28,884 nt of DNA from Selenomonas sp. Lineage in GTDB: Bacteria; Bacillota_C; Negativicutes; Selenomonadales; Selenomonadaceae. Every line of letters begins with the position of its first letter. Within the stretch, counting starts at the first letter, position 1. The notes beneath the pieces are model-generated. The model saw only the letters and a list, made by a program, of their open reading frames with translations, did not search any database and was not told where the DNA came from. The position numbers were made by a program, and so were the translations under genes. Of this stretch, positions 5,301 to 25,043 are shown in pieces. The stretch spans positions 1-28,884 of the forward strand of contig NZ_JAILKR010000096.1 in assembly GCF_024693525.1 (NCBI RefSeq). The letters are read 5' to 3'.

Positions 5301-6776
5301 TTATATATTTACATTAATATGCTTCCCTTTATGCATCGGGGTGAAAAATAATCTCTGGTTTTGATAACCAATCGTAATCTTCAGACCATTGTTTGGTGAT
5401 AGGTTCGTTGCCCTTTCTGAGACTAACTGTCTTTCCAACAGAGAAATAAACTCCTTTTGTTCTTTATTTCCTAAAGAATAAATCATCTGACCCGCCAACT
5501 TTTCTCCCACTTTGCTATGATTTAGCAACTTTGTCATTTGTATGAGTAGTGCCTTGGGAACCTTGTTATTTTCAACACGAAATACGCCACTACTCCATAG
5601 ATTGATTTGGAAAGGTTCATTTCTCGTATCTCCTAGATTCAACGGCTGCCAAAGATCCTTTAAGGATTCCCTTGTTGATGCCTCTTCCTTTCGTATTTTC
5701 GCCCCATGTTCTTTCGCCTTTTTTATAATGTCTTGTGCTGTGGCATTTCCATACTTCCAATGGTCTTTTACCTTATATACATTCTTTTTGCATTCATTTT
5801 CTAGTTCATCAAGCCATGATGTTTTCCCCGTTCCAAATTGCTCTTCTCCCATGACATCATACAGCGAACCATTTTCATACCGTATTTTAAATTCGAATGG
5901 TTTACTATAATTCTCCGCATCATTTTCCAGCATAGCAAAACGCATCTTTACTTGATACTCAAACGCATCGGTATCTAGTTCTGGATAAGATTTATCCACT
6001 AATTGCGCCAACTTAGCAAAATAACTTGAAGCATTTTTACCATCAGGCAATATGTAAACACCATTCTCGTTTTTGTGTAAATCATTTAGCTTATACGATG
6101 ATAACTGCCTTATATCCCTGTCTAAATAATAACGCTGTACCTGTTTGTCTAACGATTCATCTTCTTTCTTGACCGAATGATAACAACACATATATATATG
6201 GTCAGTCAACTCGATTTGATTATTATCTTTATTCAACGCATTTTCGATTTTCTTCGCTATTTCTTTATCTGGACCATCTACATGTAAATACCAATCTTCC
6301 GATATGGAGAACATATAGGACTGATTTTTAGGAATGACAATATTTTCCTTGGTAAAAATATTGTTCAGCTGCGTATTAACCATTTCGCGCTGATACTGTC
6401 TATTACGCATTTCTATAACTTTATAATTAGAATACGGCATGCCGTCAAATACAAAATCTTGATAATCTAACCCCGTCAACCCTTTGTTACCGGATTTAAT
6501 CAAGGCGATTAAATTCTGTACATGTGCACCTATCGCAGCATCTTGCGAGTCAAACCCATAACGATTGTGAACCTCTGCTATAGGGTCTTTATAATTCATA
6601 ATATCATGTAACTCATCTTGATCAGCGTCAAAAACCATCTGCTGTAATAGTTGTTCATAATCATCCGTATATGGATTTACTGCTGTAATCTTTGCCGATT
6701 TCTCTTGTATAATACGTTCCTTATTTGTTATAACGGATGTCCAATTTCCATTTTCATAAACATTTATCTTTGACAT
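5301..6776 (-). CDS. Uncharacterised 491-aa protein in an AT-rich island
   Basis: I do not recognise this protein with confidence. It is 491 residues, hydrophilic, rich in Asn and Lys, with no signal peptide and no membrane segment. The segment SISEDWYLHVDGPDKEIAKK (about residues 148-167) faintly recalls DUF4885-type proteins, but I cannot confirm that. GTGKTSW near residue 330 lacks the rest of a P-loop ATPase and is probably coincidental. The start is set at the ATG at 6776, which has GGAGG 6 nt upstream; an in-frame ATG at 6815 adds 13 residues without a comparable site. It follows the secreted-protein gene by 67 nt on the same strand. Codons are markedly more A/T-rich than in flanking genes, suggesting acquisition by transfer. 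Confidence 0.75.
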   Translation of the reverse strand: MSKINVYENGNWTSVITNKERIIQEKSAKITAVNPYTDDYEQLLQQMVFDADQDELHDIMNYKDPIAEVHNRYGFDSQDAAIGAHVQNLIALIKSGNKGLTGLDYQDFVFDGMPYSNYKVIEMRNRQYQREMVNTQLNNIFTKENIVIPKNQSYMFSISEDWYLHVDGPDKEIAKKIENALNKDNNQIELTDHIYMCCYHSVKKEDESLDKQVQRYYLDRDIRQLSSYKLNDLHKNENGVYILPDGKNASSYFAKLAQLVDKSYPELDTDAFEYQVKMRFAMLENDAENYSKPFEFKIRYENGSLYDVMGEEQFGTGKTSWLDELENECKKNVYKVKDHWKYGNATAQDIIKKAKEHGAKIRKEEASTRESLKDLWQPLNLGDTRNEPFQINLWSSGVFRVENNKVPKALLIQMTKLLNHSKVGEKLAGQMIYSLGNKEQKEFISLLERQLVSERATNLSPNNGLKITIGYQNQRLFFTPMHKGKHINVNI

Positions 6777-6843
6777 ATTATACCTCCATACAGCAGTAGC
6801 CCAATAAAAAGACAATCTATCTTTCTATCAGGCTATTGCATAT

Positions 6844-8607: not shown

Positions 8608-10389
8608 TTAGTCTGCTGCCTGCTCGCGAAGCATTCGTACCGAAAAGTCGGCCTCAGGAAGCGGCCGCGAGAAATAATAGCCCTGTATCGTCTCGCAGCC
8701 GATGCCAGCGAGATATTCCACCTGGTCTTTCGTCTCGACACCTTCCACAATGATATCCATATCCAGCTTCTTGGCCATGGCCACTACCGTTTCCATGATG
8801 ACCCCTGCCCGCTCAGAACGCTCGACTTCCTGAAGCAAAGACATATCGATTTTCAGCGCATCGACGGCGAGATCTTTTAGCAGATTCAGCGAGGAATACC
8901 CCTGACCGAAATCGTCCATGATAACCACGAACCCACTTTCCCGGAGCTTTTCCACCATTTCAATCATCTGCCGCGGGTTGTCCGTATAGGCACTTTCCGT
9001 CATCTCAAGCCGGAGCATCCAAGGCTCCAGCTCGTATTTTTTCAGCAAATCCTGCAAGAAGTCCAGCAATCCCAGATTGTAGAAATCCAACCGGGACACA
9101 TTGACCGATACCGGCACCACCTTGCCGCCGCGCTCCCGCTGGAGGCTCAAGAACCGGCAGGCCTCCTCCCAGATGAACCGGTCCAGCCGGCCGATAAAGC
9201 CGCTGCGCTCAAACACCGGAATAAACCGCGCTGGCGAAATGAGGCCGTTATGGGGATGATTCCAGCGCGCCAAGGCCTCCACCGAAACGATTTCGTTGGT
9301 TTTGATGTTGTAGACCGGCTGCAGATAGATGCAGAACTGACGCCCCACCAGCGCAAACTCCATATCGCGGACAATCATCTGCTCCTCAATCATCAGATCC
9401 CGCATACCTTGGTCGTAATAAGCATACCGTGCCTTATAATCGTCTTTGATGCGGCTAAGTGCCATATAAGCCCGGCCACACATCTGATCAATAGGCAGGA
9501 AGGCATTATCCACCGGATATACCCCCGCATGAAAAACGATATTATGGCTGATTCCCAGTGAGGCAATCGTGCTGTCGAGGCCATCCATGATACCGTCCAT
9601 GTCCACCTGGGAAGCCGGCAGGCAAAGAGCGAAATGATCGGCCTCGATGCGGCCGCAGATTCCCGTTTCTCCAGCTACTACCTGGAAATACACCGCCGCC
9701 GTTTTGAGGACCAGATTGCCCGTATCGATGCGGAACATATCATTGATCGCCTTGAAACAGCTGATATCAAGATACACGATATTATAGGAAACGCCGCGAT
9801 TCGCCTGCATCAGTGCCGCAGCCTTGCGGTAGAATGTCTCCCGGTTGTAGATTCCGGTCAACGAATCCTTTTCAATATAGCCATGCATAAGGGCCAGCTG
9901 CTGGTCCTTGGCTACCTGCTCCACTTTGCGCCATTCATTTTCTTGCCGCGCCATGACGTTCTTAACCCGGCAGCGCACAATCGTAGGGTTATACGGTTTG
10001 ACGATATAATCGGCAGCCCCCATTTCCATAGCCCGCGCCTCACTGGAGCCATCGCTGCGAGCCGTCATGACAATAACAGGAATCTGGGCATGCTGATCAT
10101 TATGTTTGATATAAGACAACACTTCAAACCCATCCATGACAGGCATGACCAGGTCAACCAGTACAATGCTCACGGATTGGCTCTCGATAACCTTCAGGGC
10201 TTCCTGCCCATTTACTGCCTCGATGATGGTGTATTCATCCTGAAAAAACTGGGCCAGCACAACCCGGTTGATTTCTACATCATCAACAATCAGCATCACT
10301 GGTTTTTCATCCACAATATCGCCTTCTTTACACGAAACTTTTAGCGTATAGCTACTATCATTATAACGCCATTGTTCCAGATTTACCAT
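8608..10389 (-). CDS. Response regulator with degenerate GGDEF and intact EAL domain (c-di-GMP phosphodiesterase)
   Basis: The 593-residue protein has a receiver domain (about 31-148; acidic pocket Asp36/37, phosphoacceptor Asp79, Lys131), then a GGDEF-like domain (about 170-325), then an EAL domain (about 345-590). The GGDEF signature is replaced by EADHF at 249-253, so cyclase activity is unlikely; the domain may bind GTP or be structural. The EAL set looks complete: Glu371 in EAL, Asn430, Glu462, Asp492-Asp493 in DDFGQGYSS, Lys513, Glu549 and Gln569. Net activity is therefore probably c-di-GMP hydrolysis controlled by phosphorylation. No histidine kinase is adjacent. The ATG at 10389 has AGGAAG upstream; a GTG at codon 26 directly before the receiver domain is an alternative. 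Confidence 0.93.
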   Translation of the reverse strand: MVNLEQWRYNDSSYTLKVSCKEGDIVDEKPVMLIVDDVEINRVVLAQFFQDEYTIIEAVNGQEALKVIESQSVSIVLVDLVMPVMDGFEVLSYIKHNDQHAQIPVIVMTARSDGSSEARAMEMGAADYIVKPYNPTIVRCRVKNVMARQENEWRKVEQVAKDQQLALMHGYIEKDSLTGIYNRETFYRKAAALMQANRGVSYNIVYLDISCFKAINDMFRIDTGNLVLKTAAVYFQVVAGETGICGRIEADHFALCLPASQVDMDGIMDGLDSTIASLGISHNIVFHAGVYPVDNAFLPIDQMCGRAYMALSRIKDDYKARYAYYDQGMRDLMIEEQMIVRDMEFALVGRQFCIYLQPVYNIKTNEIVSVEALARWNHPHNGLISPARFIPVFERSGFIGRLDRFIWEEACRFLSLQRERGGKVVPVSVNVSRLDFYNLGLLDFLQDLLKKYELEPWMLRLEMTESAYTDNPRQMIEMVEKLRESGFVVIMDDFGQGYSSLNLLKDLAVDALKIDMSLLQEVERSERAGVIMETVVAMAKKLDMDIIVEGVETKDQVEYLAGIGCETIQGYYFSRPLPEADFSVRMLREQAAD

Positions 10390-14833: not shown

Positions 14834-15352
14834 ATGAATCCAACCAAAAAACTTGTCTACCTGGCGCTGCTTACTGGTCAATCCCTGGCGTTGTTCCTGC
14901 TTGAAGGACTTATCCCCCTGCCATTTCTGGCACCGGGGGCCAAGCTGGGACTGGCCAACCTCATAACGCTTATCGCCCTCTACACCCTGCCCCGCTGGCA
15001 GGATGCCGCGCTGGTGCTGTTTTTGCGCATCCTGTTAGCCTCGCTATTTGGCGGCGGCCCCACCATCCTGCTCTACAGCCTGTCTGGCGGAATCCTGAGT
15101 TTTGCCGCCATGGCCCTGCTCAAAAAAAGCGGCCGCTTTACGCCTTTAGGTATCAGCAGTGCCGGCGGTTTCTGCCACCACATCGGCCAACTGCTAGCCG
15201 CCAGCTTCATCATCGGCGGTCCCCAGCTCTTTGCCTACCTGCCCATCCTCGGCCCCTGCGGCCTTTTAACCGGCTTTTTGCTCGGCGGAACGGCTGCGAA
15301 AATACTTGTTTACCTAAACCTCATCCACCCCTTCGGGGCACCTTCCCCATAA
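14834..15352 (+). CDS. Gx transporter family protein (heptaprenyl diphosphate synthase component I-like)
   Basis: This 172-residue integral membrane protein belongs to the family annotated as Gx transporter or heptaprenyl diphosphate synthase component I, related to ECF-type S components. It has about five hydrophobic helices. Typical stretches are APGAKLGLANLITL, FGGGPTILLYSLSGG and AGGFCHHIGQLLAA. AGGAGG precedes the ATG at proper spacing. It follows the NusG-II gene by 12 nt. The last residues (LIHPFGAPSP) are encoded by an intergenic-type repeat (15320-15359), so the original stop was probably lost or moved. Confidence 0.88.
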   Translation: MNPTKKLVYLALLTGQSLALFLLEGLIPLPFLAPGAKLGLANLITLIALYTLPRWQDAALVLFLRILLASLFGGGPTILLYSLSGGILSFAAMALLKKSGRFTPLGISSAGGFCHHIGQLLAASFIIGGPQLFAYLPILGPCGLLTGFLLGGTAAKILVYLNLIHPFGAPSP

Positions 15353-15359
15353 GGGGAAG
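15320..15359 (+). repeat. Palindromic intergenic-type repeat covering the 3' end of the Gx transporter gene
   Basis: The sequence starts CTCATCCACC and has two hairpins: CCCC-TTC-GGGG (15328-15338) and CTTCCCC-ATAA-GGGGAAG (15342-15359). From memory it resembles a dispersed repeat of the CTCATCC...CACCTTCCCC type frequent between Firmicute genes. It encodes the protein's last residues and its TAA stop (15350-15352). Confidence 0.55.
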
Positions 15360-15381
15360 TCTTTGGGCTTTTGGGCACACA

Positions 15382-15409
15382 AAAAGCCTCCGCAAATGCG
15401 GAGGCTTTT
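15382..15409. terminator. Bidirectional terminator between the Gx transporter and ompM copy 1
   Basis: AAAAGCCTCCGCA (15382-15394) pairs perfectly with 15397-15409, with A- and T-tracts at the ends so that it works on both strands. The loop is effectively a tetraloop, as the inner A-T pair opens. Confidence 0.9.
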
Positions 15410-15439
15410 CTTTCAGTATTCTTCTGCTAATCGCAAAGA

Positions 15440-16702
15440 TTAGAACAGGAAGTTAACCTGGCCGAATACACGGTTGGATTTGTTGTCGGTAGCAAGGTCT
15501 TTGTTCTTGCCATAACGAGCTACTGCAACAACGTTCTTGAACGGAACGTAGCTAGCACCGAGCTCCCAGCCCTTCTGGCCTTCATCGATTGCATCATAGG
15601 TGTTGAACAGGTCAACGTTCTGGCCGAGGTGACGGTAAGCTACCCAAGCACCCCAAGTGCCTTTGTTCTCATCCTGAGCGCCTTTGTAGTCGATCTCAGC
15701 AGCGCCAGCTTTTTTCTGAACATCAGCATCATGGTTCTCAGCATAGAAGCCGTTTACAGCCCAGTTCTTGTCGAACGTGTAAGCGCCTTTTGCCATCCAG
15801 ATGTTAGCTTCATCCGTCGTGCCGTTTGCATAAGCAGCACCTTTAGCCGTGATGTCGTCGCTGTTCAGGTGATGGTAGTCAGCACCCAGGGACAGTTTGC
15901 CGAAGTCATAGCCAAGACCAGCATACTGATAGTTAGCCGTATCTACAGCCGTGCCATCAGCATTGTTGATGCGACCAGCACCAGCCGTTACTTTCAGAGC
16001 TTTGCCGAAGGAAACCTCAGCACCGGAGAACTGCGTATCGAAGATGCTGTCATCATCAATCGGAGCGAATTTACCGAGCTTCGTGGAGAAGTTCGTGTAG
16101 TCGCCCTGTGCATAGATGCGTTTCAGTTTAACGTTGCCGTTGTTGTCGACATCCTTATCTTTGTCGAGATTATCAACCGTAGCATCGAGACGTGCATTTA
16201 CATGCCAGTTGCTGTTGACTTCAGCGCTCGGCTCGAGACGGAACAGAACCTTGTTCATGTCTTCATGACGGTCTGCAGCTTCGCTCTGGCCTTTCGTGTT
16301 CGTGCGAGCGAAGTCGTACTCAGCTTTGCCGTTCCATTTTACTTTGTCAGCATTTTTCTCGAGGTTAGCAACGCGAACGCCGAGGTTGTTGAGCTCATCG
16401 CCGAACTCAGCTGCCAGTTTGTCCAGCAGGGCTTTGTCGTTGCCGGAAACCGTTACGTTCTGGCTCTTAGCCATAGCGCGGGCAACCATTACAGCCATCT
16501 CATAACGAGTGATCTGTTTCTGGCCTTTGTACGTGCCATCGCCATAACCCGTGATAACGCCATCCTGAGCCAGCTGTGCTACTGCATCATATGCCCAGTG
16601 GTCTGCCGGAACATCGGAAAACGGGTTTGCTGCTGCAAACGTCGTGCTAGCTGCGCCAACAACGAGAGCCGTCGTCAGTGCGGATACAAGAGTCTTTTTC
16701 AT
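15440..16702 (-). CDS. OmpM-like SLH-domain outer-membrane porin, copy 1
   Basis: The 420-residue protein is a major outer-membrane protein of the Negativicutes type. It has a signal peptide (1-23, cleavage after TFA) and an SLH domain (about 26-80: NPFSDVPADHWAYDAVAQLA, then ITRYEMAVMVARAMA). A coiled coil follows (about 90-120, ending NLEKNADKV), then a long beta-barrel rich in alternating aromatic strands ending FGQVNFLF with the terminal Phe expected for BAM-dependent insertion. The SLH domain should bind modified peptidoglycan and tether the outer membrane. GGAGGGG precedes the ATG. Residues 1-106 match copy 5 exactly, whereas the barrel differs. It is monocistronic with its own promoter, leader motif and terminator. 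Confidence 0.93.
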   Translation of the reverse strand: MKKTLVSALTTALVVGAASTTFAAANPFSDVPADHWAYDAVAQLAQDGVITGYGDGTYKGQKQITRYEMAVMVARAMAKSQNVTVSGNDKALLDKLAAEFGDELNNLGVRVANLEKNADKVKWNGKAEYDFARTNTKGQSEAADRHEDMNKVLFRLEPSAEVNSNWHVNARLDATVDNLDKDKDVDNNGNVKLKRIYAQGDYTNFSTKLGKFAPIDDDSIFDTQFSGAEVSFGKALKVTAGAGRINNADGTAVDTANYQYAGLGYDFGKLSLGADYHHLNSDDITAKGAAYANGTTDEANIWMAKGAYTFDKNWAVNGFYAENHDADVQKKAGAAEIDYKGAQDENKGTWGAWVAYRHLGQNVDLFNTYDAIDEGQKGWELGASYVPFKNVVAVARYGKNKDLATDNKSNRVFGQVNFLF

Positions 16703-16770
16703 AAAAGAACCCCTCCTCTTAAATTAATAATATACCCTTAATATTCCGAGGAAAGATTAGAACTTCTTGT

Positions 16771-16788
16771 GAGTATCCATGTTTCCTC
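16771..16788 (-). promoter_or_regulatory. Conserved ompM leader motif, copy 1
   Basis: The transcript strand reads GAGGAAACATGGATACTC, 68 nt before the start codon and about 29 nt after the predicted transcription start. It is one of five near-identical 18-mers, one per ompM paralogue. Confidence 0.7.
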
Positions 16789-16823
16789 AACAATTTTCTT
16801 AATTATCCCTCAGAACAGCTTTA

Positions 16824-16852
16824 ATATTATCATAAATATTTTGCAAAAGCAA
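16824..16852 (-). promoter_or_regulatory. Promoter of ompM copy 1
   Basis: Minus-strand TTGCTT (16847-16852), a 17-bp spacer and TAATAT (16824-16829) with an extended-10 TG. The predicted start is near 16817. Confidence 0.6.
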
Positions 16853-16911
16853 GCAATTTCTCGATAATAATTCTCAACCAATCATTAAAGTTCCTTTAAG
16901 TAATTAAAAAA

Positions 16912-16955
16912 CGGATAGAATTTCTTTTGTTTCTTCGCAAAAGAAATTCTATCCG
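16912..16955 (-). terminator. Terminator of ompM copy 2
   Basis: A perfect 18-bp stem (16912-16929 with 16938-16955) and 8-nt loop, followed on the minus strand by TTTTTTAATTA. Confidence 0.92.
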
Positions 16956-17001
16956 CCCGATTTATATCGGTTTCAACTTAGTCGTAACTTCACCGATTCG
17001 A

Positions 17002-18276
17002 TTAGAACAGGAAGTTTACGCGACCGAAGAGGTTCTGGACGTCTTTGCCACCCTGGATGGTCTCGCCTTTACCATAGCGGAGCGTCAGAATCGTGTTCTT
17101 GAACATAGCGTAGTTGCCGCCGACTTCCCAGCCTTTTTCGCCGCCGTTATCGAGGTTGATTACATCCCACGGGCTAGCGATGAAGGCGTTCTGGCCGAGG
17201 TGACGATATGCAACCCAGAGGCCATAAGTGCCCTGGTTCTCAGCCTGTGCACCTTTATAGTCGAGCTCTGCACTGCCAGCTTTGTTCAGTACATCAGCAT
17301 CGTGGTTCTGCGCATAGAAGCCCTTGAAGGCAACATTTTTGCTGAATGCATAGCCGCCTTTTACGAGCCAGATGTTAGCTTCGTCCGTAGCTTTGTTAGC
17401 GTAGCCATAAGCAGACGTCATGTTTTTCGCATTCAGATGATGCAGGCGTGCCGCACCCCAGAGTTTGTTCTTCTTGAGGCCAAGACCAACATACTGATAG
17501 TTAGCCGTGCCTTCATCCGTAAATGCGATAACGTTCTGAGCCAGACGGCCAGCACCGCCGATTACGCTGATGCCATCGCCAGCTGCATTGTAACTGACCT
17601 CAGCACCGGAGAACGGCGTATCGGTAATCGTATCATCATCCGGAGCAGCGAACTTACCGAATTTGTAAGTCATCTTGCCATAGTTGCCCTCAGCCCAGAT
17701 ACGTTTGAGCGATACTTTATCATGGTCAGCATCATTTGCTTTATCCGTATCCAGATCCGTATCCGCATCGAGACGAGCCTTTACATGCCAATTGCTATTG
17801 ACTTCAGCCGTCGGCTCGAGACGGAACAGAACGTTGTTGCGGCTGTCTTTTTCGTCATTCTGGCCATCCGTCATGTAGTGCTGGAACGTATACTCTGCCG
17901 TGCCATGCCATGCAACCTTGTCAGCATTTTTCTCGAGATTAGCTACGCGAACACCGAGGTTGTTGAGCTCATCGCCGAACTCAGCAGCCAGTTTGTCCAG
18001 CAGGGCTTTGTCGTTGCCAGAAACTGCTACGCCATTGTTGTTAGCCATAGCGCGGGCAACCATTACAGCCATCTCATAACGCGTGATCTGCTTGTCACCT
18101 TTGTAGGTGCCATCGCCATAACCCGTTACGACACCGTCTTTAGCCAGCTGAGCTACGGCATCATATGCCCAGTGGTCTGCCGGAACATCCGTGAACGGAT
18201 TCTGAGCAGCGAACGTCGTGCTTGCAGCACCAACTACCAGTGCAGTCGTCAATGCGGATACCAGAGTCTTTTTCAT
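17002..18276 (-). CDS. OmpM-like SLH-domain outer-membrane porin, copy 2
   Basis: The 424-residue paralogue has the same order of parts: signal peptide to residue 23, SLH domain (NPFTDVPADHWAYDAVAQLA; ITRYEMAVMVARAMA), coiled coil ending NLEKNADKV, and a barrel ending FGRVNFLF. Compared with copy 1 the linker after the SLH reads NNNGVAVSGND instead of KSQNVTVSGND, and the barrel strands and loops differ, pointing to distinct surface exposure or pore properties. AGGGGGAG precedes the ATG. It is separated from copies 1 and 3 by terminators and has its own promoter, so it can be expressed independently. Confidence 0.93.
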   Translation of the reverse strand: MKKTLVSALTTALVVGAASTTFAAQNPFTDVPADHWAYDAVAQLAKDGVVTGYGDGTYKGDKQITRYEMAVMVARAMANNNGVAVSGNDKALLDKLAAEFGDELNNLGVRVANLEKNADKVAWHGTAEYTFQHYMTDGQNDEKDSRNNVLFRLEPTAEVNSNWHVKARLDADTDLDTDKANDADHDKVSLKRIWAEGNYGKMTYKFGKFAAPDDDTITDTPFSGAEVSYNAAGDGISVIGGAGRLAQNVIAFTDEGTANYQYVGLGLKKNKLWGAARLHHLNAKNMTSAYGYANKATDEANIWLVKGGYAFSKNVAFKGFYAQNHDADVLNKAGSAELDYKGAQAENQGTYGLWVAYRHLGQNAFIASPWDVINLDNGGEKGWEVGGNYAMFKNTILTLRYGKGETIQGGKDVQNLFGRVNFLF

Positions 18277-18350
18277 AATAGAAACTCCCCCTAAATATAG
18301 AATAAATAACCCCTCGTCCCTAAGAAGGTATACCAGGTTCGTTTCCCCAC

Positions 18351-18368
18351 GAGTATCCTTGTTTCCTC
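18351..18368 (-). promoter_or_regulatory. Conserved ompM leader motif, copy 2
   Basis: The transcript strand reads GAGGAAACAAGGATACTC, 74 nt before the ATG and about 27 nt after the predicted start. Unlike copies 1, 3 and 4 it has no internal ATG, which argues against a leader peptide. Confidence 0.7.
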
Positions 18369-18401
18369 GTCCCCCCGGTATCTTTCCCTCGGACGATTCT
18401 T

Positions 18402-18430
18402 ATAATATCATAAATGGCGTTTCTTGACAA
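18402..18430 (-). promoter_or_regulatory. Promoter of ompM copy 2
   Basis: Minus-strand TTGTCA (18425-18430), a 17-bp spacer and TATTAT (18402-18407) preceded by an extended-10 TGA. The predicted start is near 18395. Confidence 0.7.
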
Positions 18431-18495
18431 CGGTTCCACATGATTTTTTCGTGATTTTTCGCATTTTTTCATGTTTTTCTAAACAATTACACCAA

Positions 18496-18523
18496 AAAGC
18501 CTTCCCCCGAAAGGGAAGGCTTT
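18496..18523 (-). terminator. Terminator of ompM copy 3
   Basis: AAAGCCTTCCC (18496-18506) pairs with 18513-18523 across a 6-nt loop. The minus-strand exit is T-rich (TTTTTGGTG). Confidence 0.88.
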
Positions 18524-18551
18524 CGATTCGAATCAATAATTCGATAGTTGA

Positions 18552-19826
18552 TTAGAATTTGAACTCAACGCGGCCGAAGAGTTTCTCGGCATCTTTGCCG
18601 CCATCAAGTTTCTCACCGTTGAAGTATTTGAGGGTTGCTACCGTGTTCTTAGCCAGCGTGTAGTTCGTGCCTACTTCCCAGCCTTTCGTGCCAGCCCATG
18701 CACCATCATAAGACGGGTCAAAGGCTACGTTCTGGCCGAGGTGACGATATGCGGCATAAGCACCCCAAGTACCCTTGTTGGCATCCTCAGCGCCCTTGTA
18801 GTCGAGCTCTACGGAACCAGCTTTCTTGTAGTTATCAGCCTTAGCATTCTCAGCGTAGGTACCAGCGAGGGCTACGTTCTTGTCGAAGGCATAGCGGGCA
18901 TTAGCAGACCAGATCTGAGCTTTGTCAGAAGCCTCGCCATTGCGATAGCCAGCCATGTTCTTGAAGTTGTCGCTCTCGAGGTTGTGGTAGGCAGCACCCA
19001 GGGACAATTTGTCCTTGCCATACTGCAGGCCAACGCTCTGCATGCTAGCCGTATCGTTGTCAGCAGCGCCAGCAGCTTCTACTGCCGTATTGTTCGTGCT
19101 GCCCGTCATATCATAGCGGCCTGCCTGCAGCGTGAGTTTGAGGTCTTTGCCCGTGCTAAGGGATGCACCGGAAATCTCATCATCGAAGAGCAGGTCTTTG
19201 TCGAGCTGCATCGGCAGTTTACCGAGTTTGATGTTAGTATTGCCGTACTGGCCATCTGCCCAGATGCGTTTGAGGCTGACATCGGATTTCGTGTTGTCGC
19301 TCTTGAGATCCGTGGAAGCATCGATACGAGCATTTACATGCCAGTTGTCATTAACTTCAGCACTCGGCTCGAGGCGGAAGAGCAGCTCGTTGTCGTTCGT
19401 ACGGTCTTTGGAACCAGCAGCGTTTTCTTCACGCTGGCTCGTGTAGGTATAACGAGCCTCGCCGTTCCATTTTACTTTGTCGGCATTCTTCTCGAGGTTG
19501 CTTACGCGAACGCCCAGGTTGTTGAGCTCATCCGCAAACTCAGCGGACAGTTTATCCAGCAGGGCTTTGTCGTTGCCGCTGACGTTCTGTTTTGCCATGG
19601 CTTTGGCAACCATCTGAGCCATCTCATAACGCGTAATCTGTTTGTCGCCTTTGAACGTGCCATCCGCATAACCTTCGATGACGCCATCGTTAGCCAGCTG
19701 AGCTACCGCATCGTATGCCCAGTGGTCAGACGGTACATCCTGGAACGGGTTCGTAGCAGCAAAGGTAGTGGAAGCAGCACCTACAACCAGTGCCGTAGTC
19801 AGTGCAGATACAATAGTCTTTTTCAT
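18552..19826 (-). CDS. OmpM-like SLH-domain outer-membrane porin, copy 3
   Basis: From the ATG at 19826 this paralogue has 424 residues; GGAGGAG lies 6 nt upstream. The frame is open to 19913, but the extra 29 residues would precede a perfect signal peptide (MKKTIVSALTTALVVGAAST). It is the most diverged N-terminus of the five: NPFQDVPSDHWAYDAV, IEGYADGTFKG, and a shortened linker (AKQNVSGND) lacking two or three residues present elsewhere. The coiled coil and a barrel ending FGRVEFKF follow. The family role is as for the other copies: an SLH-anchored outer-membrane barrel. Sequence differences cluster in the barrel. Confidence 0.93.
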   Translation of the reverse strand: MKKTIVSALTTALVVGAASTTFAATNPFQDVPSDHWAYDAVAQLANDGVIEGYADGTFKGDKQITRYEMAQMVAKAMAKQNVSGNDKALLDKLSAEFADELNNLGVRVSNLEKNADKVKWNGEARYTYTSQREENAAGSKDRTNDNELLFRLEPSAEVNDNWHVNARIDASTDLKSDNTKSDVSLKRIWADGQYGNTNIKLGKLPMQLDKDLLFDDEISGASLSTGKDLKLTLQAGRYDMTGSTNNTAVEAAGAADNDTASMQSVGLQYGKDKLSLGAAYHNLESDNFKNMAGYRNGEASDKAQIWSANARYAFDKNVALAGTYAENAKADNYKKAGSVELDYKGAEDANKGTWGAYAAYRHLGQNVAFDPSYDGAWAGTKGWEVGTNYTLAKNTVATLKYFNGEKLDGGKDAEKLFGRVEFKF

Positions 19827-19903
19827 GATAATCTCCTCCATTTCGTAAAAACGAAAAGTAAAAAATGTTGTCATCCTTCCAGTCCGGGTCGGCGGAGCAT
19901 CAT

Positions 19904-19921
19904 GAGTGTCCATGTTTCCTC
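19904..19921 (-). promoter_or_regulatory. Conserved ompM leader motif, copy 3
   Basis: The transcript strand reads GAGGAAACATGGACACTC, identical to copy 4. It is 77 nt before the ATG and about 31 nt after the predicted start. Confidence 0.7.
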
Positions 19922-19958
19922 AGCGCTCTTTCGCGTCCCTGTCCCTTGGGATGATTTA

Positions 19959-19987
19959 ATTATATTACTTGACAAAGTCAATTACAA
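19959..19987 (-). promoter_or_regulatory. Promoter of ompM copy 3
   Basis: Minus-strand TTGTAA (19982-19987), a 17-bp spacer and a perfect TATAAT (19959-19964). The predicted start is near 19952, giving a leader of about 125 nt. Confidence 0.72.
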
Positions 19988-20058
19988 TTAACGGACGATT
20001 ATTCTTTCCTTATGTTTTGATTAGATAGTTTTCTAAGTCAACTATAAGAATAAGAAAA

Positions 20059-20085
20059 AGACCTTCCTCAAAACGAGGAAGGTCT
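20059..20085 (-). terminator. Terminator of ompM copy 4
   Basis: AGACCTTCCTC (20059-20069) pairs with 20075-20085 across a 5-nt loop, and the minus-strand exit is TTTTTCTTATTC. Confidence 0.9.
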
Positions 20086-20106
20086 GACCAATCGAAAGAT
20101 AATCGA

Positions 20107-21390
20107 TTAGAAGAAGAACTCAACACGGCCGAAGAGTTTGGAAACGTCTTTCTTCGTGTTCAGGTCTTCACCGTTGAAGTATTTCACGTTAGCAACCGTG
20201 TTTTTGAACAGCGTGTAGTTGCCGCCGATTGCCCAGCCCTTGGAGTTGAGCTGTGCATCATCCTGGTTAGCATCGATAACCGCATATTTACCGATATGAC
20301 GATAAGCTACATAAGCACCCCAAGTGCCTTTGTTGGCTTTCTGAGCGCCTTTATAGTCGAGCTGAACCATGCCAGCCTTGTTGTAGTAGTCAGCTTTCTC
20401 GTTCTTGATGTAAGCGCCACCGAGAGCTACATCTTTGCCGAACTTATAGGAACCAGCAACTTCCCAAGCACCGAAGGTGTCTTCTTTGCCACTCTTAGCA
20501 TAGCCAGCTGTCTTAAACTCATCAGAGGTTGCATTATAGTAAGCAGCCGTACCAGCGAGGTTGCCTGCCTTGTAGGACAGGGCAACGCTCTGAAGGTTAG
20601 CAGCAGCATCATTATTAGCCAGAGCCCCCAACGCCGTATCCAGCGTAGAATCACCTGCTAAATCGATGCGGCCAGCGAATACCGTTGCTTTGAGTTTGTT
20701 GCCAACCGTTACAGCGGCTCCAGAAGCCTGGTCGTTGAGCATCAGAGAGTTATCATAGTTCGTAGCAACGCCGAACTTACCGAGTTTAACCTGGAAGTTC
20801 TTGTAGTCGCCCTGTGCCCAGATGCGTTTAAGTTTAACCTCAGTAGAAGTATCTTTGCTGAGATCTGCAGACGAATCAAGACGTGCTTTTACATGCCAGT
20901 TGCTGTTAATTTCAGCCGTCGGCTCAAGACGAAGCAGAAGCTCATCATTATTCTTTTTGGTCTTCGTGCCGTCTATAGCTTCGTTGCGGTTGCTCGTATA
21001 CGTGTAACGAGCTTCGCCGTTCCATTTTACTTTGTCAGCATTTTTCTCGAGGTTGCTTACGCGAACACCGAGGTTGTTGAGCTCGTCGCCGAACTCAGCT
21101 GCCAGTTTGTCCAGCAGAGCTTTGTCGTTGCCGGAAACATTTACGCCGTTGTTGTTAGCCATAGCACGAGCAACCATTACAGCCATCTCATAACGAGTGA
21201 TCTGTTTCTGGCCCTTGTAGGTGCCATCACCATAACCCGTGATGACGCCGTCTTTAGCCAGCTGAGCTACTGCATCGTATGCCCAGTGATCTGCCGGTAC
21301 ATCCGTGAACGGGTTTGCTGCCGCAAACGTCGTGCTAGCAGCGCCGACTACCAGTGCAGTCGTCAGTGCAGTTACAAGAGTCTTTTTCAT
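20107..21390 (-). CDS. OmpM-like SLH-domain outer-membrane porin, copy 4
   Basis: From the ATG at 21390 the product has 427 residues; GGGAGGAA precedes it. The open frame extends to 21468 but the upstream part is leader. The signal peptide is MKKTLVTALTTALVVGAAST. The SLH domain is almost that of copy 2 (NPFTDVPADHWAYDAVAQLA, linker NNNGVNVSGND), and the region after it (VSNLEKNADKVKWNGEARYTYTS) matches copy 3. The N-terminus therefore looks like a mosaic of its neighbours. The barrel ends FGRVEFFF. Own promoter, leader motif and terminator. Confidence 0.93.
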   Translation of the reverse strand: MKKTLVTALTTALVVGAASTTFAAANPFTDVPADHWAYDAVAQLAKDGVITGYGDGTYKGQKQITRYEMAVMVARAMANNNGVNVSGNDKALLDKLAAEFGDELNNLGVRVSNLEKNADKVKWNGEARYTYTSNRNEAIDGTKTKKNNDELLLRLEPTAEINSNWHVKARLDSSADLSKDTSTEVKLKRIWAQGDYKNFQVKLGKFGVATNYDNSLMLNDQASGAAVTVGNKLKATVFAGRIDLAGDSTLDTALGALANNDAAANLQSVALSYKAGNLAGTAAYYNATSDEFKTAGYAKSGKEDTFGAWEVAGSYKFGKDVALGGAYIKNEKADYYNKAGMVQLDYKGAQKANKGTWGAYVAYRHIGKYAVIDANQDDAQLNSKGWAIGGNYTLFKNTVANVKYFNGEDLNTKKDVSKLFGRVEFFF

Positions 21391-21458
21391 TAGAAATTCC
21401 TCCCTTTTCATAAAACAAAAATGTCCGTCCCGAGAAAGGTCCGGTAAGGAATTCCCAT

Positions 21459-21476
21459 GAGTGTCCATGTTTCCTC
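21459..21476 (-). promoter_or_regulatory. Conserved ompM leader motif, copy 4
   Basis: The transcript strand reads GAGGAAACATGGACACTC, 68 nt before the ATG and about 29 nt after the predicted start. Confidence 0.7.
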
Positions 21477-21511
21477 AGCGTCTTCCTTATCATTCTCTCC
21501 CGATTGACTTC

Positions 21512-21540
21512 ATATTAGCACGCAACGCTACGGATTGCAA
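21512..21540 (-). promoter_or_regulatory. Promoter of ompM copy 4
   Basis: Minus-strand TTGCAA (21535-21540), a 17-bp spacer and TAATAT (21512-21517). The predicted start is near 21505. Confidence 0.65.
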
Positions 21541-21697
21541 ACATTTTTTAACAGTCTGATAACTCGTCTCTCAGACCGTTTTAACATCTAAAAATAACCT
21601 GAAAGCCCATCCCGACTGCTCCGCAACCGTTTCCCCTTTCCGGATAATAATTATGTTTCCTTCCATAATATCCTAGGATTATATTTCGATTAAACAA

Positions 21698-21728
21698 AGA
21701 AGGCCTTCCCCATAAGGGAAGGCCTTCT
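21698..21728 (-). terminator. Terminator of ompM copy 5
   Basis: AGAAGGCCTTCCC (21698-21710) pairs perfectly with 21716-21728 across a 5-nt loop, 18 nt after the stop. The minus-strand exit is TTTGTTTAATC. Confidence 0.9.
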
Positions 21729-21745
21729 AATCCAGCAAGGGATTA

Positions 21746-23047
21746 TCAGAAGAAGAAGCTTACGCGAGCGTAAAGCGTCTCTGCCGTTTTGTCCTGGTTA
21801 GCAAACTGCTTGCCATGGAAATAGCCAAGCGTCGTCAGCGTATTCTGCATCGGAACATAGCTTGCGGAGAAATCCCAGCCTTTTTCATTAAGCGTATCAT
21901 GACCCGTGCCAACATTAGCATGTGCCGTGTCAAAGGTCGGCATCAGCGAAGCGTTGCTGCCCAGGTGACGGTAAGCAACGGAAGCGCCAAAGGTACCTTT
22001 GTTAGCTTTATTGGCACCTTTGTAGTCGATCTCAGCCGTGCCGGATTTCTTGTAGTCCTTGGCATCCGTGTTTTCCGCATAAGCACCAGCTACTGCCCAG
22101 TTCTTATCGAAGGTGTAACGGCCACCAACAGACAGGATGTCCGCATCGTCTTTGTCAGCTTTGTAGCCCGGAGCCGTCTTGAATACTTCGCTGCTAAAAT
22201 GACGATAGCCCAGGCCGCCCGTCAGCTTGCCCTGCTCAGCACTCAGCTGAACGCCCTGATAACTGGCAGCATCGTCTTTCGCGCCTTCCGTTACTTTGGC
22301 ATTGGCATCACCGTTGATATTCCAACGGCCAGCTTCAGCCGTGAGTTTTACCTTGTTGCCAACAGTAGCCTGTACGCCGGAGAAGAAATCATCCATGACG
22401 AGGCCATCATCGTTGGTGGAGTAGAACGGCATCTTACCAGCTTTGACATTCACGCTGCCATAGTTGCCCTCGGCAAAGACATAGGACAGTTTCGTCGTGC
22501 CCGTGCTGTCCTTATCCATCAGGAAGTTGCTGGTCAGACGAGCTTTGACGGACCAGTTATCGTTGATTTCAGCCGTCGGGAACAGACGGAAGGAAACATG
22601 GTCGATGTTGTCCTTGTTCTTTTTGCCAGCAGCATCTTCATCGCGATAGCTCCAATAACGGTAACGAGCCTCGCCCGTCCATTTTACCTTGTCGGCATTC
22701 TTCTCAAGATTGCTTACGCGGACACCCAGGTTGCTCAGCTCATCGCCGAACTCAGCAGCCAGCTTGTCCAAGAGGGCTTTGTCGTTGCCGGAAACCGTTA
22801 CGTTCTGGCTCTTAGCCATAGCGCGGGCAACCATTACAGCCATCTCATAACGGGTGATCTGTTTCTGGCCTTTATAGGTGCCATCACCATAGCCCGTGAT
22901 AACGCCATCCTGAGCCAGCTGTGCTACTGCATCATATGCCCAGTGGTCAGCCGGTACATCGGAAAACGGATTTGCTGCGGCAAAAGTCGTGCTGGCTGCG
23001 CCAACCACGAGGGCCGTCGTCAGTGCGGATACAAGAGTCTTTTTCAT
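21746..23047 (-). CDS. OmpM-like SLH-domain outer-membrane porin, copy 5
   Basis: The 433-residue paralogue is the promoter-distal-most copy on the right of the array. Its signal peptide, SLH domain and linker are identical to those of copy 1 to residue 106; the underlying DNA differs mainly at synonymous sites, in scattered patches. After the coiled coil (LSNLGVRVSNLEKNADKV) the barrel is the most different of the set (ARYRYWSYRDE; end ARVSFFF), still with terminal Phe. GGGGAGGAG precedes the ATG. A 9-nt part of its leader motif is complementary to the sequence adjoining this Shine-Dalgarno. Confidence 0.93.
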   Translation of the reverse strand: MKKTLVSALTTALVVGAASTTFAAANPFSDVPADHWAYDAVAQLAQDGVITGYGDGTYKGQKQITRYEMAVMVARAMAKSQNVTVSGNDKALLDKLAAEFGDELSNLGVRVSNLEKNADKVKWTGEARYRYWSYRDEDAAGKKNKDNIDHVSFRLFPTAEINDNWSVKARLTSNFLMDKDSTGTTKLSYVFAEGNYGSVNVKAGKMPFYSTNDDGLVMDDFFSGVQATVGNKVKLTAEAGRWNINGDANAKVTEGAKDDAASYQGVQLSAEQGKLTGGLGYRHFSSEVFKTAPGYKADKDDADILSVGGRYTFDKNWAVAGAYAENTDAKDYKKSGTAEIDYKGANKANKGTFGASVAYRHLGSNASLMPTFDTAHANVGTGHDTLNEKGWDFSASYVPMQNTLTTLGYFHGKQFANQDKTAETLYARVSFFF

Positions 23048-23116
23048 AATGGAAACTCCTCCCCTAAAAATAGAATATAAATGTGCTTGTTCGCTCTTAA
23101 TGGATATATTGCACCG

Positions 23117-23134
23117 GAGTTTCCCTGTTTCCTC
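23117..23134 (-). promoter_or_regulatory. Conserved ompM leader motif, copy 5
   Basis: The transcript strand reads GAGGAAACAGGGAAACTC, 69 nt before the ATG and about 27 nt after the predicted start. With the next base it contains GGAAACTCC (23116-23124), which can pair with GGAGTTTCC beside the Shine-Dalgarno (23051-23059). Confidence 0.7.
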
Positions 23135-23167
23135 CAGAAATGTCCTTTAATCGCGAACATGTATCCT

Positions 23168-23196
23168 ATGATAGCATAACCATTACAAATTTACAA
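23168..23196 (-). promoter_or_regulatory. Promoter of ompM copy 5
   Basis: Minus-strand TTGTAA (23191-23196), a 17-bp spacer and TATCAT (23168-23173). The predicted start is near 23161. Confidence 0.62.
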
Positions 23197-23229
23197 GTAA
23201 CAATCCTGTTTCATCAATAGCATTGTAAA

Positions 23230-23268
23230 AAATGCCTACTGGTTCCCCTAAGAAACCAATAGGCATTT
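23230..23268 (-). terminator. Terminator of the DUF951 gene
   Basis: Bases 23230-23244 pair with 23254-23268 with one C/A mismatch, enclosing a 9-nt loop. The minus-strand exit is a TTTTTTAC tract. It lies between the DUF951 stop and the ompM copy 5 promoter. Confidence 0.78.
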
Positions 23269-23287
23269 ATTTATCCACCGGACGGCT

Positions 23288-23316
23288 CTTTCACGACCGT
23301 CAGGATATGGTATAAT
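23288..23316 (+). promoter_or_regulatory. Possible plus-strand promoter antisense to DUF951
   Basis: An extended -10 TGGTATAAT ends at 23316 and a weak -35 CTTTCA lies 17 bp upstream. A transcript from about 23323 would run antisense through the whole DUF951 gene into the amidase gene. Confidence 0.45.
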
Positions 23317-23321
23317 TATTC

Positions 23322-23525
23322 TTAGTTTTCCGAATCGGCGTGTTTTACAATGGCACGCACCATTTTTTCGAACTTCGGCCGGGGAAGCATCACCAAGTGA
23401 CCGCACCCTTGGCATTTCAGACGGAAGTCCATGCCGACCCGCAGGATTTCCCATTCACTGCTGCCGCAGGGATGCGGCTTCTTCATGCGAACGATATCGC
23501 CCAGGCTGTACTGTTGTTTTTCCAT
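23322..23525 (-). CDS. DUF951 domain-containing protein
   Basis: The 67-residue protein matches the short DUF951 family: YSLGDIVRMKKPHPCGSSEW, then LRVGMDFRLKCQGCGHLVML and a PRPKFEK tail. Cys in PCGSSEW and the CQGCG pair suggest a small metal- or nucleic-acid-binding fold; function is unknown. The start is set at the ATG at 23525, which has GGGGAGA 7 nt upstream. The frame is open to 23570, but that would overlap the divergent amidase start. Only 31 bp separate the two start codons, so promoters for each gene must lie in or across the other. Confidence 0.88.
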   Translation of the reverse strand: MEKQQYSLGDIVRMKKPHPCGSSEWEILRVGMDFRLKCQGCGHLVMLPRPKFEKMVRAIVKHADSEN

Positions 23526-23556
23526 TCTATCTTCTCCCCTCATGAGGTGATTTACT

Positions 23557-24354
23557 ATGAAAGTTGCCATCCTGCAGATGGCAGTCGCATTAGGCGAGCC
23601 CCAAAAGAATATCGCAAACCTCTATCGCATGGCAGAAGCCGCCATGGAGAGCCGCCCGGATGTCCTGCTGCTGCCGGAACTATGGCCGGTGGGCTTCTAT
23701 CCCCAGCCAATCCTGGACTACGCGGACGCAGATGGCAGACAAATGCGCGACACTTTGTCCCAGCTGGCCAAGCGGTATCAGGTCAACATCGTCGGCGGCA
23801 CCGTCGCCAATGCCATCGGCAAACAGGTCTTCAACACCTGCTATGTCTTTGACCGCGGTGGCCAGCTGGCCGCCACTTACCATAAGACCCATCTCTTCAC
23901 CCCCAGCGGAGAAGCCGAGGATTTTGAACCAGGAAACAGCCTCGTGACAGTTACCCTTGACGGCGTCAAATGCGGCATCGCTGTCTGCTATGACATCCGC
24001 TTTCCCGAATTCACCCGCCAGCTGACCCTTTCCGGCATCAGTGTTCTCTTCCTGCCCGCCGCCTGGCCACAGACACGGCTGTTCCACTGGCAGACGCTTA
24101 TCCGCGCCCGAGCCATTGAAAACCAGATTTTCATCGCGGCCTGCAACGAAGCGGGGCTAGGCCCCCACGACACGCCAATGGCTGGCCACTCAGCTCTCAT
24201 CGACCCGTGGGGTGAAATCCTCGCCGAAGCCGGGGAAGAGGAGGACATCCTGCAGGGGAATCTGCGGCCAGCCATCCGCACCCAGATAAAAGAAACCATG
24301 GATGTTCTCGCCGACCGACGCGAAACGCTATATCTTTCCAAGCCGAAAAAATAA
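23557..24354 (+). CDS. Carbon-nitrogen hydrolase family protein (omega-amidase/nitrilase superfamily)
   Basis: This 265-residue cytoplasmic hydrolase has the superfamily triad Glu41 (LLLPELWP), Lys110 (YHKTHLF) and Cys144 (GIAVCYDIRFPE). The context TPSGEAEDFEPGN and the GHSALIDPWGEIL stretch match the YafV/NIT2 omega-amidase-like branch. This group hydrolyses alpha-ketoglutaramate-type omega-amides, but the real substrate is not evident. GAGGTG precedes the ATG. The stop codon lies within the stem of the downstream terminator (24348-24394). Confidence 0.92.
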   Translation: MKVAILQMAVALGEPQKNIANLYRMAEAAMESRPDVLLLPELWPVGFYPQPILDYADADGRQMRDTLSQLAKRYQVNIVGGTVANAIGKQVFNTCYVFDRGGQLAATYHKTHLFTPSGEAEDFEPGNSLVTVTLDGVKCGIAVCYDIRFPEFTRQLTLSGISVLFLPAAWPQTRLFHWQTLIRARAIENQIFIAACNEAGLGPHDTPMAGHSALIDPWGEILAEAGEEEDILQGNLRPAIRTQIKETMDVLADRRETLYLSKPKK

Positions 24355-24394: not shown

Positions 24395-24446
24395 ACGTTA
24401 TAAAAAAGGGAACGTCAATATAGGGGAAAAGCCTGTAAAGCAGGGA

Positions 24447-25043
24447 TTACGCTTCACAAGCCTCGAGGGCAATCAATTCCTGCTCCGACAGCAGGAACGT
24501 GTTCAGTGCGGCAGCCACATCTTTGCAGAAAGAAGATACACTGTAACGACGCACATCGCGAAGATGGTCATAAAACCATGCGAGAATGTGTTCCTTCAAA
24601 AACCACTGATAGGTTTGCCAGAGCCCCGTAGCCTCCTTGGTTTTAAGGGAGGGCAAGCCGGCCAAGTTTTCAAGGAGTTTGCTCATAAAAGCAAAGGAAT
24701 AAAAGACATGGCCATCAAAATCATCGTCCTCTTCCGCCGATGCCATACCGGCTTCCACGCAGGCACGGCGCACCAGCAGATTCTCCGCTTCAATCATCTG
24801 GGAATTGACCTTGTGATAAAACGCCTCAAAGGGTGGCGCCAACAGCGTGCACGGCCCGATAAAGAGCTGATTGTAATCGTAGGCACTATCCACATCGATT
24901 TTCGGCACGACAACCCGTCCCGGCAGCAGCGCACCAATATGCTGGGCGGCTGCTTTGCCCGAACGCAGGACTCCCGAGTAATACTCCGACAACTCGCGGT
25001 ATATCTCTGCTTTCTGCAGCAAGGCTTCCCTGCTTTCACACAT
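24447..25043 (-). CDS. TorD/DmsD-family molybdoenzyme chaperone
   Basis: The 198-residue all-helical protein resembles TorD-type chaperones, which bind apo-molybdoenzymes during cofactor loading. The family signature is seen at residues 57-76 (YNQLFIGPCTLLAPPFEAFY, cf. YxxLFxGPxxLxAPPxESxY), followed by a helical C-terminal half. It sits 145 bp after the PucR-type regulator and within 2 kb of a molybdopterin oxidoreductase, its obvious client. That enzyme lacks a Tat signal, so the chaperone's role here is probably cofactor insertion rather than export proof-reading. The start is the ATG at 25043, with AAAAGGAAA upstream. Confidence 0.85.
   Translation of the reverse strand: MCESREALLQKAEIYRELSEYYSGVLRSGKAAAQHIGALLPGRVVVPKIDVDSAYDYNQLFIGPCTLLAPPFEAFYHKVNSQMIEAENLLVRRACVEAGMASAEEDDDFDGHVFYSFAFMSKLLENLAGLPSLKTKEATGLWQTYQWFLKEHILAWFYDHLRDVRRYSVSSFCKDVAAALNTFLLSEQELIALEACEA

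Follow-up and report, generated by a model that had tools for sequence, protein, structure and literature searches.

We asked why five tandem porin genes of a Selenomonas genome should carry the same short motif in their leaders. The window, that is, the whole 28,884-nt stretch of DNA analysed, contains five copies of the 18-nt sequence GAGGAAACANGGANACTC, all on the minus strand and arranged as GAG, a 12-nt loop and CTC, and no further copy at up to 3 mismatches was found elsewhere in it. Across 100 dinucleotide shuffles the mean was 0.22 copies, and five were never reached (0/100). The five genes 3' of the motif encode SLH porins (Pfam SLH plus Porin_4 or Porin_5), and their start codons follow at 68, 74, 77, 68 and 69 nt. 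These figures confirm the original prediction of a common motif in all five leaders, 68-77 nt before the start codon. An ATG lies within three of the five copies only, which excludes a leader-peptide reading, as had been argued before.

Table 1. Features of the window discussed in the text (window coordinates).
Feature	Position	Strand	Basis
SLH porin (ompM paralogue) 1	15440..16702	-	Pfam SLH + Porin_4/Porin_5
SLH porin (ompM paralogue) 2	17002..18276	-	Pfam SLH + Porin_4/Porin_5
SLH porin (ompM paralogue) 3	18552..19826	-	Pfam SLH + Porin_4/Porin_5
SLH porin (ompM paralogue) 4	20107..21390	-	Pfam SLH + Porin_4/Porin_5
SLH porin (ompM paralogue) 5	21746..23047	-	Pfam SLH + Porin_4/Porin_5
Motif, ompM leader 1 (GAG, 12-nt loop, CTC)	16771..16788	-	sequence match
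Motif, ompM leader 2	18351..18368	-	sequence match
Motif, ompM leader 3	19904..19921	-	sequence match
Motif, ompM leader 4	21459..21476	-	sequence match
Motif, ompM leader 5	23117..23134	-	sequence match
Leader hairpin 1	16743..16816	-	predicted; whole leader -28.5 kcal/mol, z -2.65
Leader hairpin 2	18317..18393	-	predicted; whole leader z -0.31, by itself not significant
Leader hairpin 3	19875..19949	-	predicted; whole leader z -1.44
Leader hairpin 4	21430..21503	-	predicted; whole leader z -1.97
Leader hairpin 5	23088..23159	-	predicted; whole leader z -2.71
Promoter-like site, gene 2	18402..18430	-	consensus match only
Promoter-like site, gene 3	19959..19987	-	consensus match only
Promoter-like site, gene 5	23168..23196	-	consensus match only
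Terminator-like hairpin 3' of gene 2	16910..16957	-	predicted
Terminator-like hairpin 3' of gene 4	20059..20085	-	predicted
Terminator-like hairpin 3' of gene 5	21698..21728	-	predicted

In the predicted folds, the motif sits at the tip of a long irregular hairpin of 72-77 nt in the window. This hairpin starts close to the predicted transcription start and stops about 40-50 nt short of the start codon, with the ribosome-binding site outside it. The remainder of the leaders had been described as dissimilar; this is right for their sequence but not for their structure, as all share the long hairpin. A flank-swap test of 245 non-redundant leaders, a set that like the 167 leaders of an earlier run contains a few chance sites, gave a mean energy of -30.4 with the native flanks and -21.8 with swapped ones. 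Ninety-two percent of the 245 leaders were lower in energy than their own flank swaps, and the median number of loop-enclosing pairs was 28 as against 12 with swapped flanks (Wilcoxon p of about 4e-27 in the earlier run). Pairing along the stem dips to 63% at position -4 and to 48-57% at -8 to -10. At -4, the 245 leaders comprise 128 direct pairs, 66 mismatches or internal loops, 22 single 5' bulges, 23 single 3' bulges and 6 other arrangements. The -4/+4 pair varies in identity among 45 hand-chosen rows (U-A 13, A-U 10, G-C 4, C-G 3, U-G 2, unpaired 13). For these rows, the structure scored 0.280 in register and still 0.207 when shifted by +2 columns, a point against.

The closing triplet varies as well. 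GAG/CTC is usual among the fetched loci, its share being inflated by the GAG/CTC pattern used to retrieve most of them; searches with the Cyano-1 model and later models were not pattern-based. Among 17 outer-membrane-protein leaders from 20 hand-picked model matches, 11 close with AAG/CTT, a count that includes two near-identical orthologues (L435 and L436), and one leader (L379) has the GTG/CAC closing of Cyano-1. Within the loop, positions 9, 10, 13 and 14 are variable over 191 leaders, position 13 being A in 168 and C or T in 23, and the five window paralogues differ at positions 10 and 14. According to these comparisons, the stem is kept by base pairing and not by sequence, while the 12-nt loop GAAACNNGGNNA is kept nearly letter for letter. 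Since the two flanks pair with each other and covariation is seen in these pairs, RNA is favoured over DNA, and judged from sequence we regard it as settled that the element acts as RNA.

The position of the hairpin in the transcript was approached through promoter-like sites. Sigma-70-like promoters were recognized in three of the five leaders, with -10 elements ending at 18402, 19959 and 23168, although such sites are no commoner in the window region than expected by chance (7 versus a shuffle mean of 7.8). With the start assumed to lie 7 nt after the -10 element, the hairpin would begin 2-3 nt after the inferred start in these three leaders, and the predicted spacing of about 27-31 nt from start to motif was reproduced. 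For 302 leaders from many genomes, promoter-like sites (at least 9/12 matches) were found in 134, as against 79 in shuffles. In 48 of the 134 the site is 30-50 nt ahead of the loop, compared with 10 in shuffles. A second excess lies 90-100 nt before the loop (31 of the 134; 11 in shuffles); it counts against starts at the hairpin foot, the starts being predicted only.

We then turn to how widely the motif occurs. Genome scans at up to 1 mismatch, each paired with a reversed-pattern control, found it in 225/253 genomes of the window's class, Negativicutes (control 19/253), 87/94 of Deinococcota (10/94), 53/60 of Limnochordia (9/60), 42/59 of the Halanaerobiales class (1/59) and 22/50 of Atribacterota (2/50), where 28/50 had no match. 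The control matched 5/81 genomes in a further phylum set, inferred to be Bacillota. Group names were inferred from named records, which are the group centres L077, L081, L098 and L134 and, for the window's class, Selenomonas, Veillonella and others. The motif was neither absent from related leaders nor found at random positions, both of which were tested, and selection for a common porin-leader element, as originally predicted, is strongly supported well beyond the Selenomonas genome. One family of the window's class (f4) is largely without the element: 4/11 genomes match, and a model search gave weak matches only in 3/3, of which the one fetched (L447) was false. Two Deinococcota genomes (G286 and G291) have motif matches that are not the element.

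Next, we examined the genes that follow. Across 354 loop-plus-stem sites, the downstream ORF is SLH in 246 and signal-peptide-like in 85 (331/354 together). By group, with an SLH profile derived from the SLH-typed proteins at the loci studied and with fetched loci being a sample of all matches (at most 30 per retrieval), SLH genes follow 28/30 sites in Deinococcota, 25/27 in the Halanaerobiales class and 17/26 in Atribacterota. The 25 Limnochordia sites fetched have 4 SLH and 19 signal-peptide-like genes downstream. A scan of ten non-SLH downstream proteins returned four porin-family matches, one of them just under the cut-off, and one TonB receptor; 39 complete signal-only proteins have a C-terminal Phe. 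At the sites examined, the hairpin mostly precedes genes for SLH porins or S-layer tethers, or for other outer-membrane proteins. Twelve of the 52 plasmid records in which SLH matched were fetched, and the loop was absent from the leaders of all nine cyanobacterial porin loci among them (9/9) and likewise from before two Deinococcota and one Sporomusa SLH gene. The sole partial loop match in these 12 loci lies on the opposite strand of L388.

The original prediction knew of no described element of this kind. That part did not hold, as loop and stem match the cyanobacterial Cyano-1 (RF01701)/Yfr2 RNA. The same 12-nt apical loop stands in the model consensus and in 191 leaders, and both have a long stem broken by internal loops, with copies at unrelated loci; PMC2662882 portrays Yfr2 itself as a long, interrupted stem bearing a 12-nt loop. 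Some of the leaders are also weak just under the third pair, but the likeness is partial: PMC2662882 reports a bulge at -4 from the loop in all eight Yfr2 sequences, whereas -4 is unpaired in only about 37% of the 245 leaders. The Cyano-1 model falls on porin leaders always below the Rfam cut-off (best 36.6 versus 41 bits), and 19 of 20 fetched Cyano-1 matches contain the 12-nt loop. It exceeded the cut-off in none of 120 genomes and, among 14 controls, in S. elongatus only. Cyano-1 was reported for 2/15 loci (E up to 2) and for 2/19 loci (E up to 10), with no match in window region 15300-23600 at E up to 5; no Rfam family exceeded its cut-off in that region or in the 15-locus and 19-locus sets. 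The two kinds of RNA also differ. The leaders precede outer-membrane-protein genes in phyla other than cyanobacteria, the fetched ones are usually closed by GAG/CTC, and the unpaired, conserved 5' motif of Yfr2 that pairs with Yfr1 (UGUGUGAGGAG) is absent, TGTGAGGAG at up to 1 mismatch occurring in 2/304 leaders where 4.2 were expected. Yfr2 is known as a free, abundant sRNA of 65-80 nt. The family is widespread in cyanobacteria, its function being called unknown in the part of PMC5386190 consulted. In the literature searched, a single library, no link of Yfr2/Cyano-1 or the motif to non-cyanobacterial outer-membrane-protein leaders was found. The analysis shows the hairpin, through comparative evidence, as well as how widely it occurs, its association with outer-membrane-protein genes and the Cyano-1 match below threshold. 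The original interpretation as a whole is partly supported.

According to the section of PMC10628300 consulted, OmpM serves both as an outer-membrane tether and as an entry route for nutrients, probably throughout the diderm Terrabacteria; the portions of the OmpM literature consulted contain nothing on control of its synthesis. The reading we prefer, at a probability of roughly 55%, is that ompM mRNAs open with a hairpin whose loop docks a conserved trans-acting factor controlling outer-membrane-protein mRNAs. Each ompM mRNA would begin with the long irregular hairpin presenting GAAACNNGGNNA at its apex. The same hairpin precedes outer-membrane-protein genes in Negativicutes, Limnochordia, the Halanaerobiales class, Deinococcota and some of the Atribacterota. 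The candidate factor, probably a protein and most likely an RNA-binding one, would jointly set translation or turnover of these mRNAs, while cyanobacterial Yfr2 would present the same loop in trans. The element may mark an ancient mode of outer-membrane-protein control that has not been described before. More tentatively, and with doubts on our part, diderm Terrabacteria might share an old outer-membrane control in which an RNA-binding factor reads the loop on the 5' ends of porin and tether mRNAs and Yfr2 RNAs are free mimics titrating the same factor. A single RNA element preceding ompM-type genes in lineages far apart opens a way into their control, with the loop usable as bait, and also suggests a testable explanation for why this cyanobacterial sRNA family has its loop. 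It would be unusual for a short regulatory RNA loop to be common to such distant phyla while remaining linked to a single kind of gene.

Other readings were weighed against this one. The hairpin could be only a 5'-terminal stabiliser that blocks 5'-end-dependent decay, just as 5' stem-loops protect long-lived porin messages such as ompA of E. coli. Its place next to the inferred start in the three window leaders and the excess of promoter-like sites just upstream in other leaders agree with this, but stability needs a stem and not a 12-nt loop conserved across phyla. We find it unlikely that stabilisation is all, although it may be part of the hairpin's function. It is a little less likely again that a small RNA base-pairs with the loop, whether as its target or as its partner. 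When Prochlorococcus RNAs were assayed with a reporter, a porin leader was repressed by Yfr1 and the repression was lifted by Yfr2 (PMC6778093), which is also post-transcriptional control of porin mRNA leaders with Yfr2 taking part. However, that antisense pairing is ascribed to another part of Yfr2, the 5' motif missing from our leaders, and antisense pairing would sit oddly with the variable loop positions, two of which vary even among the window paralogues. Another reading, in which cleavage would release the hairpin from the leader as a trans-acting, Yfr2-like sRNA and leave the mRNA as a by-product, is improbable. Yfr2b and Yfr2c of Synechocystis do lie at mRNA 5' ends like the leader hairpins, sharing their start with the downstream gene (PMC2662882), and are termed actuatons in the consulted part of PMC5386190. 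Yet a mere sRNA gene needs no link to the downstream gene such as that found here, and no terminator follows the window hairpins except in leader 2, where 18311-18328 is a weak match. A leader sensing a ligand or temperature (riboswitch or thermometer) is more improbable still: a conserved loop within a 5' leader makes a small aptamer conceivable, but the ribosome-binding site lies outside the hairpin, neither a strong attenuator nor a riboswitch expression platform is evident in the window leaders, and a table in PMC2864571 enters Cyano-1 as 'n' under both switch and cis-regulatory.

Of the original alternatives of an RNA or a DNA element, the RNA side gained from flank pairing and covariation, and the DNA side did not stand. 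A downstream operator for a transcription factor would account for the roughly fixed distance to the promoter-like sites but not for complementary flanks and compensatory closing pairs, and the motif itself is not palindromic; we give it very little credence. Least probable of all is a CsrA/RsmA site. The CsrA consensus is RUACARGGAUGU, and ANGGA stands in the loop of most copies, as it does in the hairpin loops of CsrA/RsmA sites and of the RsmY/CsrB sponges. For Yfr2, this resemblance is also remarked on in PMC2662882. GGA is not strict, however, given C or T at loop position 13 in some leaders. A csrA match was found in 148/253 genomes of the window's class but in none of families f15, f30, f31, f32 and f7, where 71/83 genomes have the motif. 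As these five families carry the motif without a csrA match, CsrA is excluded as a general partner.

A regulated leader of an S-layer gene has a parallel in Thermus thermophilus, where the Berenguer group reportedly described regulation through the slpA mRNA leader with SlrA and SlpA as regulators. The literature searched gave no link between these regulators and the loop; the hairpin itself does occur in an SLH-protein leader of a congener, Thermus altitudinis (L134).

As the original prediction had held, each of the five tandem ompM genes carries a copy of the motif in its leader; all five were recovered at the predicted positions, on the minus strand only (0.22 expected). The distance of 68-77 nt between motif and start codon was reproduced in the five leaders. 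The placement about 27-31 nt after the predicted transcription start also held, from the three leaders with a listed promoter-like site, such sites showing no enrichment over shuffles in this region of the window. The five genes encode SLH porins, and terminator-like hairpins lie 3' of at least three of them, so the genes look like separate transcription units. Two further window genes are listed in the table.

Next, we examined the structure of the leaders. Folding predicted a hairpin of 72-77 nt in each ompM leader, with the motif core as apical loop closed by GAG/CTC. Fold significance in the window leaders ranged from z = -0.31 to -2.71, single folds being convincing only in part. The hairpin was settled by a comparative flank swap, in which a leader kept its own upstream flank and received the downstream flank of other leaders: much of the hairpin was lost on swapping. 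Across 167 leaders, mean energies were -28.2 (native) and -20.3 kcal/mol (swapped), with 23 and 11 enclosing pairs; across 245 leaders, the values were -30.4 and -21.8, with medians of 28 and 12 enclosing pairs, and 92% of the 245 were lower in energy than their own swaps. Moreover, the two sides of the closing triplet change in step. The 3-pair-stem closings tallied from 398 sequences (loci plus window) were GAG/CTC (331), AAG/CTT (8), ATG/TAT (2), GTG/CAC (1), CAG/CTG (1) and two others, and AAG/CTT also closed the loop in 11 of 17 outer-membrane-protein leaders among 20 hand-picked model-search matches. The pair below the triplet, counted on 45 hand-chosen rows, covaries as well (U-A 13, A-U 10, G-C 4, C-G 3, U-G 2, unpaired 13). 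The covariation score of four pairs was 0.280 versus 0.098 in shuffles, and the slid-structure control nearest to it (+2) reached 0.207. Over 191 leaders, collected by a pattern with GAG/CTC fixed and one change permitted between, loop positions G4, A6, A7, C8, G11 and G12 were invariant, A5 and A15 nearly constant, and 9, 10, 13 and 14 variable.

The genes behind the element are mostly of one kind. At 354 sites where the loop sits on a 3-pair stem, an SLH protein came next in 246 cases and another ORF passing the signal-peptide rule in 85, which include some misparsed SLH genes or chance matches in unrelated taxa; 12 had another ORF, and at 11 none was found. A C-terminal Phe was found in 152 SLH and 39 signal-only proteins, counting complete proteins. 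Ten non-SLH proteins comprised four with Porin_4 or Porin_5 (one just under the curated cut-off), one TonB-dependent receptor and five without a family. In family f15 of the class, where sites were chosen largely for scattered copies, 17 of 20 preceded SLH porins (TonB receptor 1, contig end 1, neither 1), indicating that the element is tied to the gene and not to one locus. One genome (G063:C19 and C27) has seven scattered copies with a single loop, GAAACAAGGCAA; six stand before SLH porins and the remaining one is at the end of a contig. Loci L037 and L205, one place in genome G044, carry the element before a TonB-dependent receptor (Pfam Plug plus barrel in L037), and at L371 a copy with a weaker stem precedes a protein that is receptor-like by eye. 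In 302 leaders, promoter-like sites were in excess 30-50 nt upstream of the loop (48 versus 10 in shuffles), placing the hairpin about at the mRNA 5' end; a second excess lies at 90-100 nt (31 versus 11).

Taxonomic range was searched with the motif pattern at up to one mismatch, with the reversed pattern as control. The motif was present in 32 of 41 close relatives and in 225 of 253 genomes (76 of 86 genera) of Negativicutes (control 19/253). It was found in 87/94 Deinococcota genomes, mostly with one match each (control 10/94), and in the classes of a Halanaerobiales genome (42/59; control 1/59) and a Limnochordia genome (53/60; control 9/60); in the phylum of an Atribacteria genome it was found in 22/50, 28 lacking a match (control 2/50). 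A named-genome scan gave at least 120 matching stretches. Among the matches listed were Selenomonas, Mitsuokella, Veillonella, Dialister, Acidaminococcus, Sporomusa, Pectinatus and others and, outside the class, Halanaerobiales, Limnochordia, Atribacteria, Trueperaceae, Thermus and a UBP9 genome; those listed in other phyla upstream of unrelated genes look like chance. Among genomes drawn evenly from the whole phylum (probably Bacillota), where many one-membrane species are to be expected, 16/81 matched (control 5/81), and 19 of 22 sites retrieved precede SLH or signal-peptide-like ORFs; the ORF at at least one such site, L273, does not look outer-membrane-protein-like. In genome G291, GAGGAAACAAGGATTCTC recurs, in many cases at the ends of contigs; this is probably mobile or repetitive DNA rather than the element.

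We then asked how the element relates to known RNAs. The sole relevant Rfam model was Cyano-1 (RF01701; cut-off 41 bits), identified in PMC8400943 as the Yfr2 sRNA family's motif. Its consensus has the same loop, with GUG/CAC as closing. It aligned along its whole length with the element in Dialister (33.9 bits, E 0.05) and in Thermus (28.7 bits, E 0.9), was reported at no other locus in sets of 15 and 19, and was not reported in the window. In 120 Negativicutes genomes it gave 36 matches at E<=1 (23 genomes), none over the cut-off; of 14 controls only S. elongatus matched. The loop was present in 19 of 20 retrieved matches, 17 of these 19 preceding a signal-peptide-like ORF. PMC2662882 describes a Yfr2 hairpin in which a 12-nt loop caps a long stem bulged at -4, and reports that two members share a transcription start with the downstream gene; primers there imply loops GAAACAAGGAAA and GAAACATGGCAA beside GUC or GAC, suggesting a further closing. 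Thus, the element resembles the Yfr2 hairpin, yet it is not classed under Cyano-1. In a reporter assay of Prochlorococcus RNAs (PMC6778093), Yfr1 repressed a porin leader and Yfr2 lifted the repression. The Yfr2 5' motif, an unpaired stretch credited with Yfr1 pairing, was absent from the leaders examined here, and the loop occurred in none of nine cyanobacterial plasmid porin loci or three further plasmid SLH genes. A similar loop may have arisen by convergence, although for the groups outside cyanobacteria the common gene context favours shared descent.

The best explanation for a near-invariant loop capping a stem that evolves freely, in front of a single type of gene across several phyla, is a conserved binding partner. 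A recruited factor would alter translation or decay of the mRNA. Direct masking of the ribosome-binding site appears less likely, as this site lies outside the hairpin in the window leaders. Family f4 of the class (e.g. genomes G028, G226 and G228) has largely lost the element, with the motif in 4 of 11 genomes and only weak model-search matches in 3 of 3, a natural experiment for tracing the partner. CsrA was rejected as general partner, there being no csrA match in families that retain the element. In one genus (g1), 13 of 16 genomes have two csrA matches.

Coordinates of additional features in the window and of a paired element elsewhere
Feature	Sequence	Position	Strand	Remark
GGDEF- and EAL-domain response regulator	window	8608-10389	-	
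DUF4885 protein	window	5301-6815		near the GGDEF/EAL response regulator
Two element copies 156 nt apart before a single porin-like gene	L107 (locus); G607:C70 (genome and contig)	439-612; 24439-24612		run of N between copies in L107; real tandem or assembly artefact
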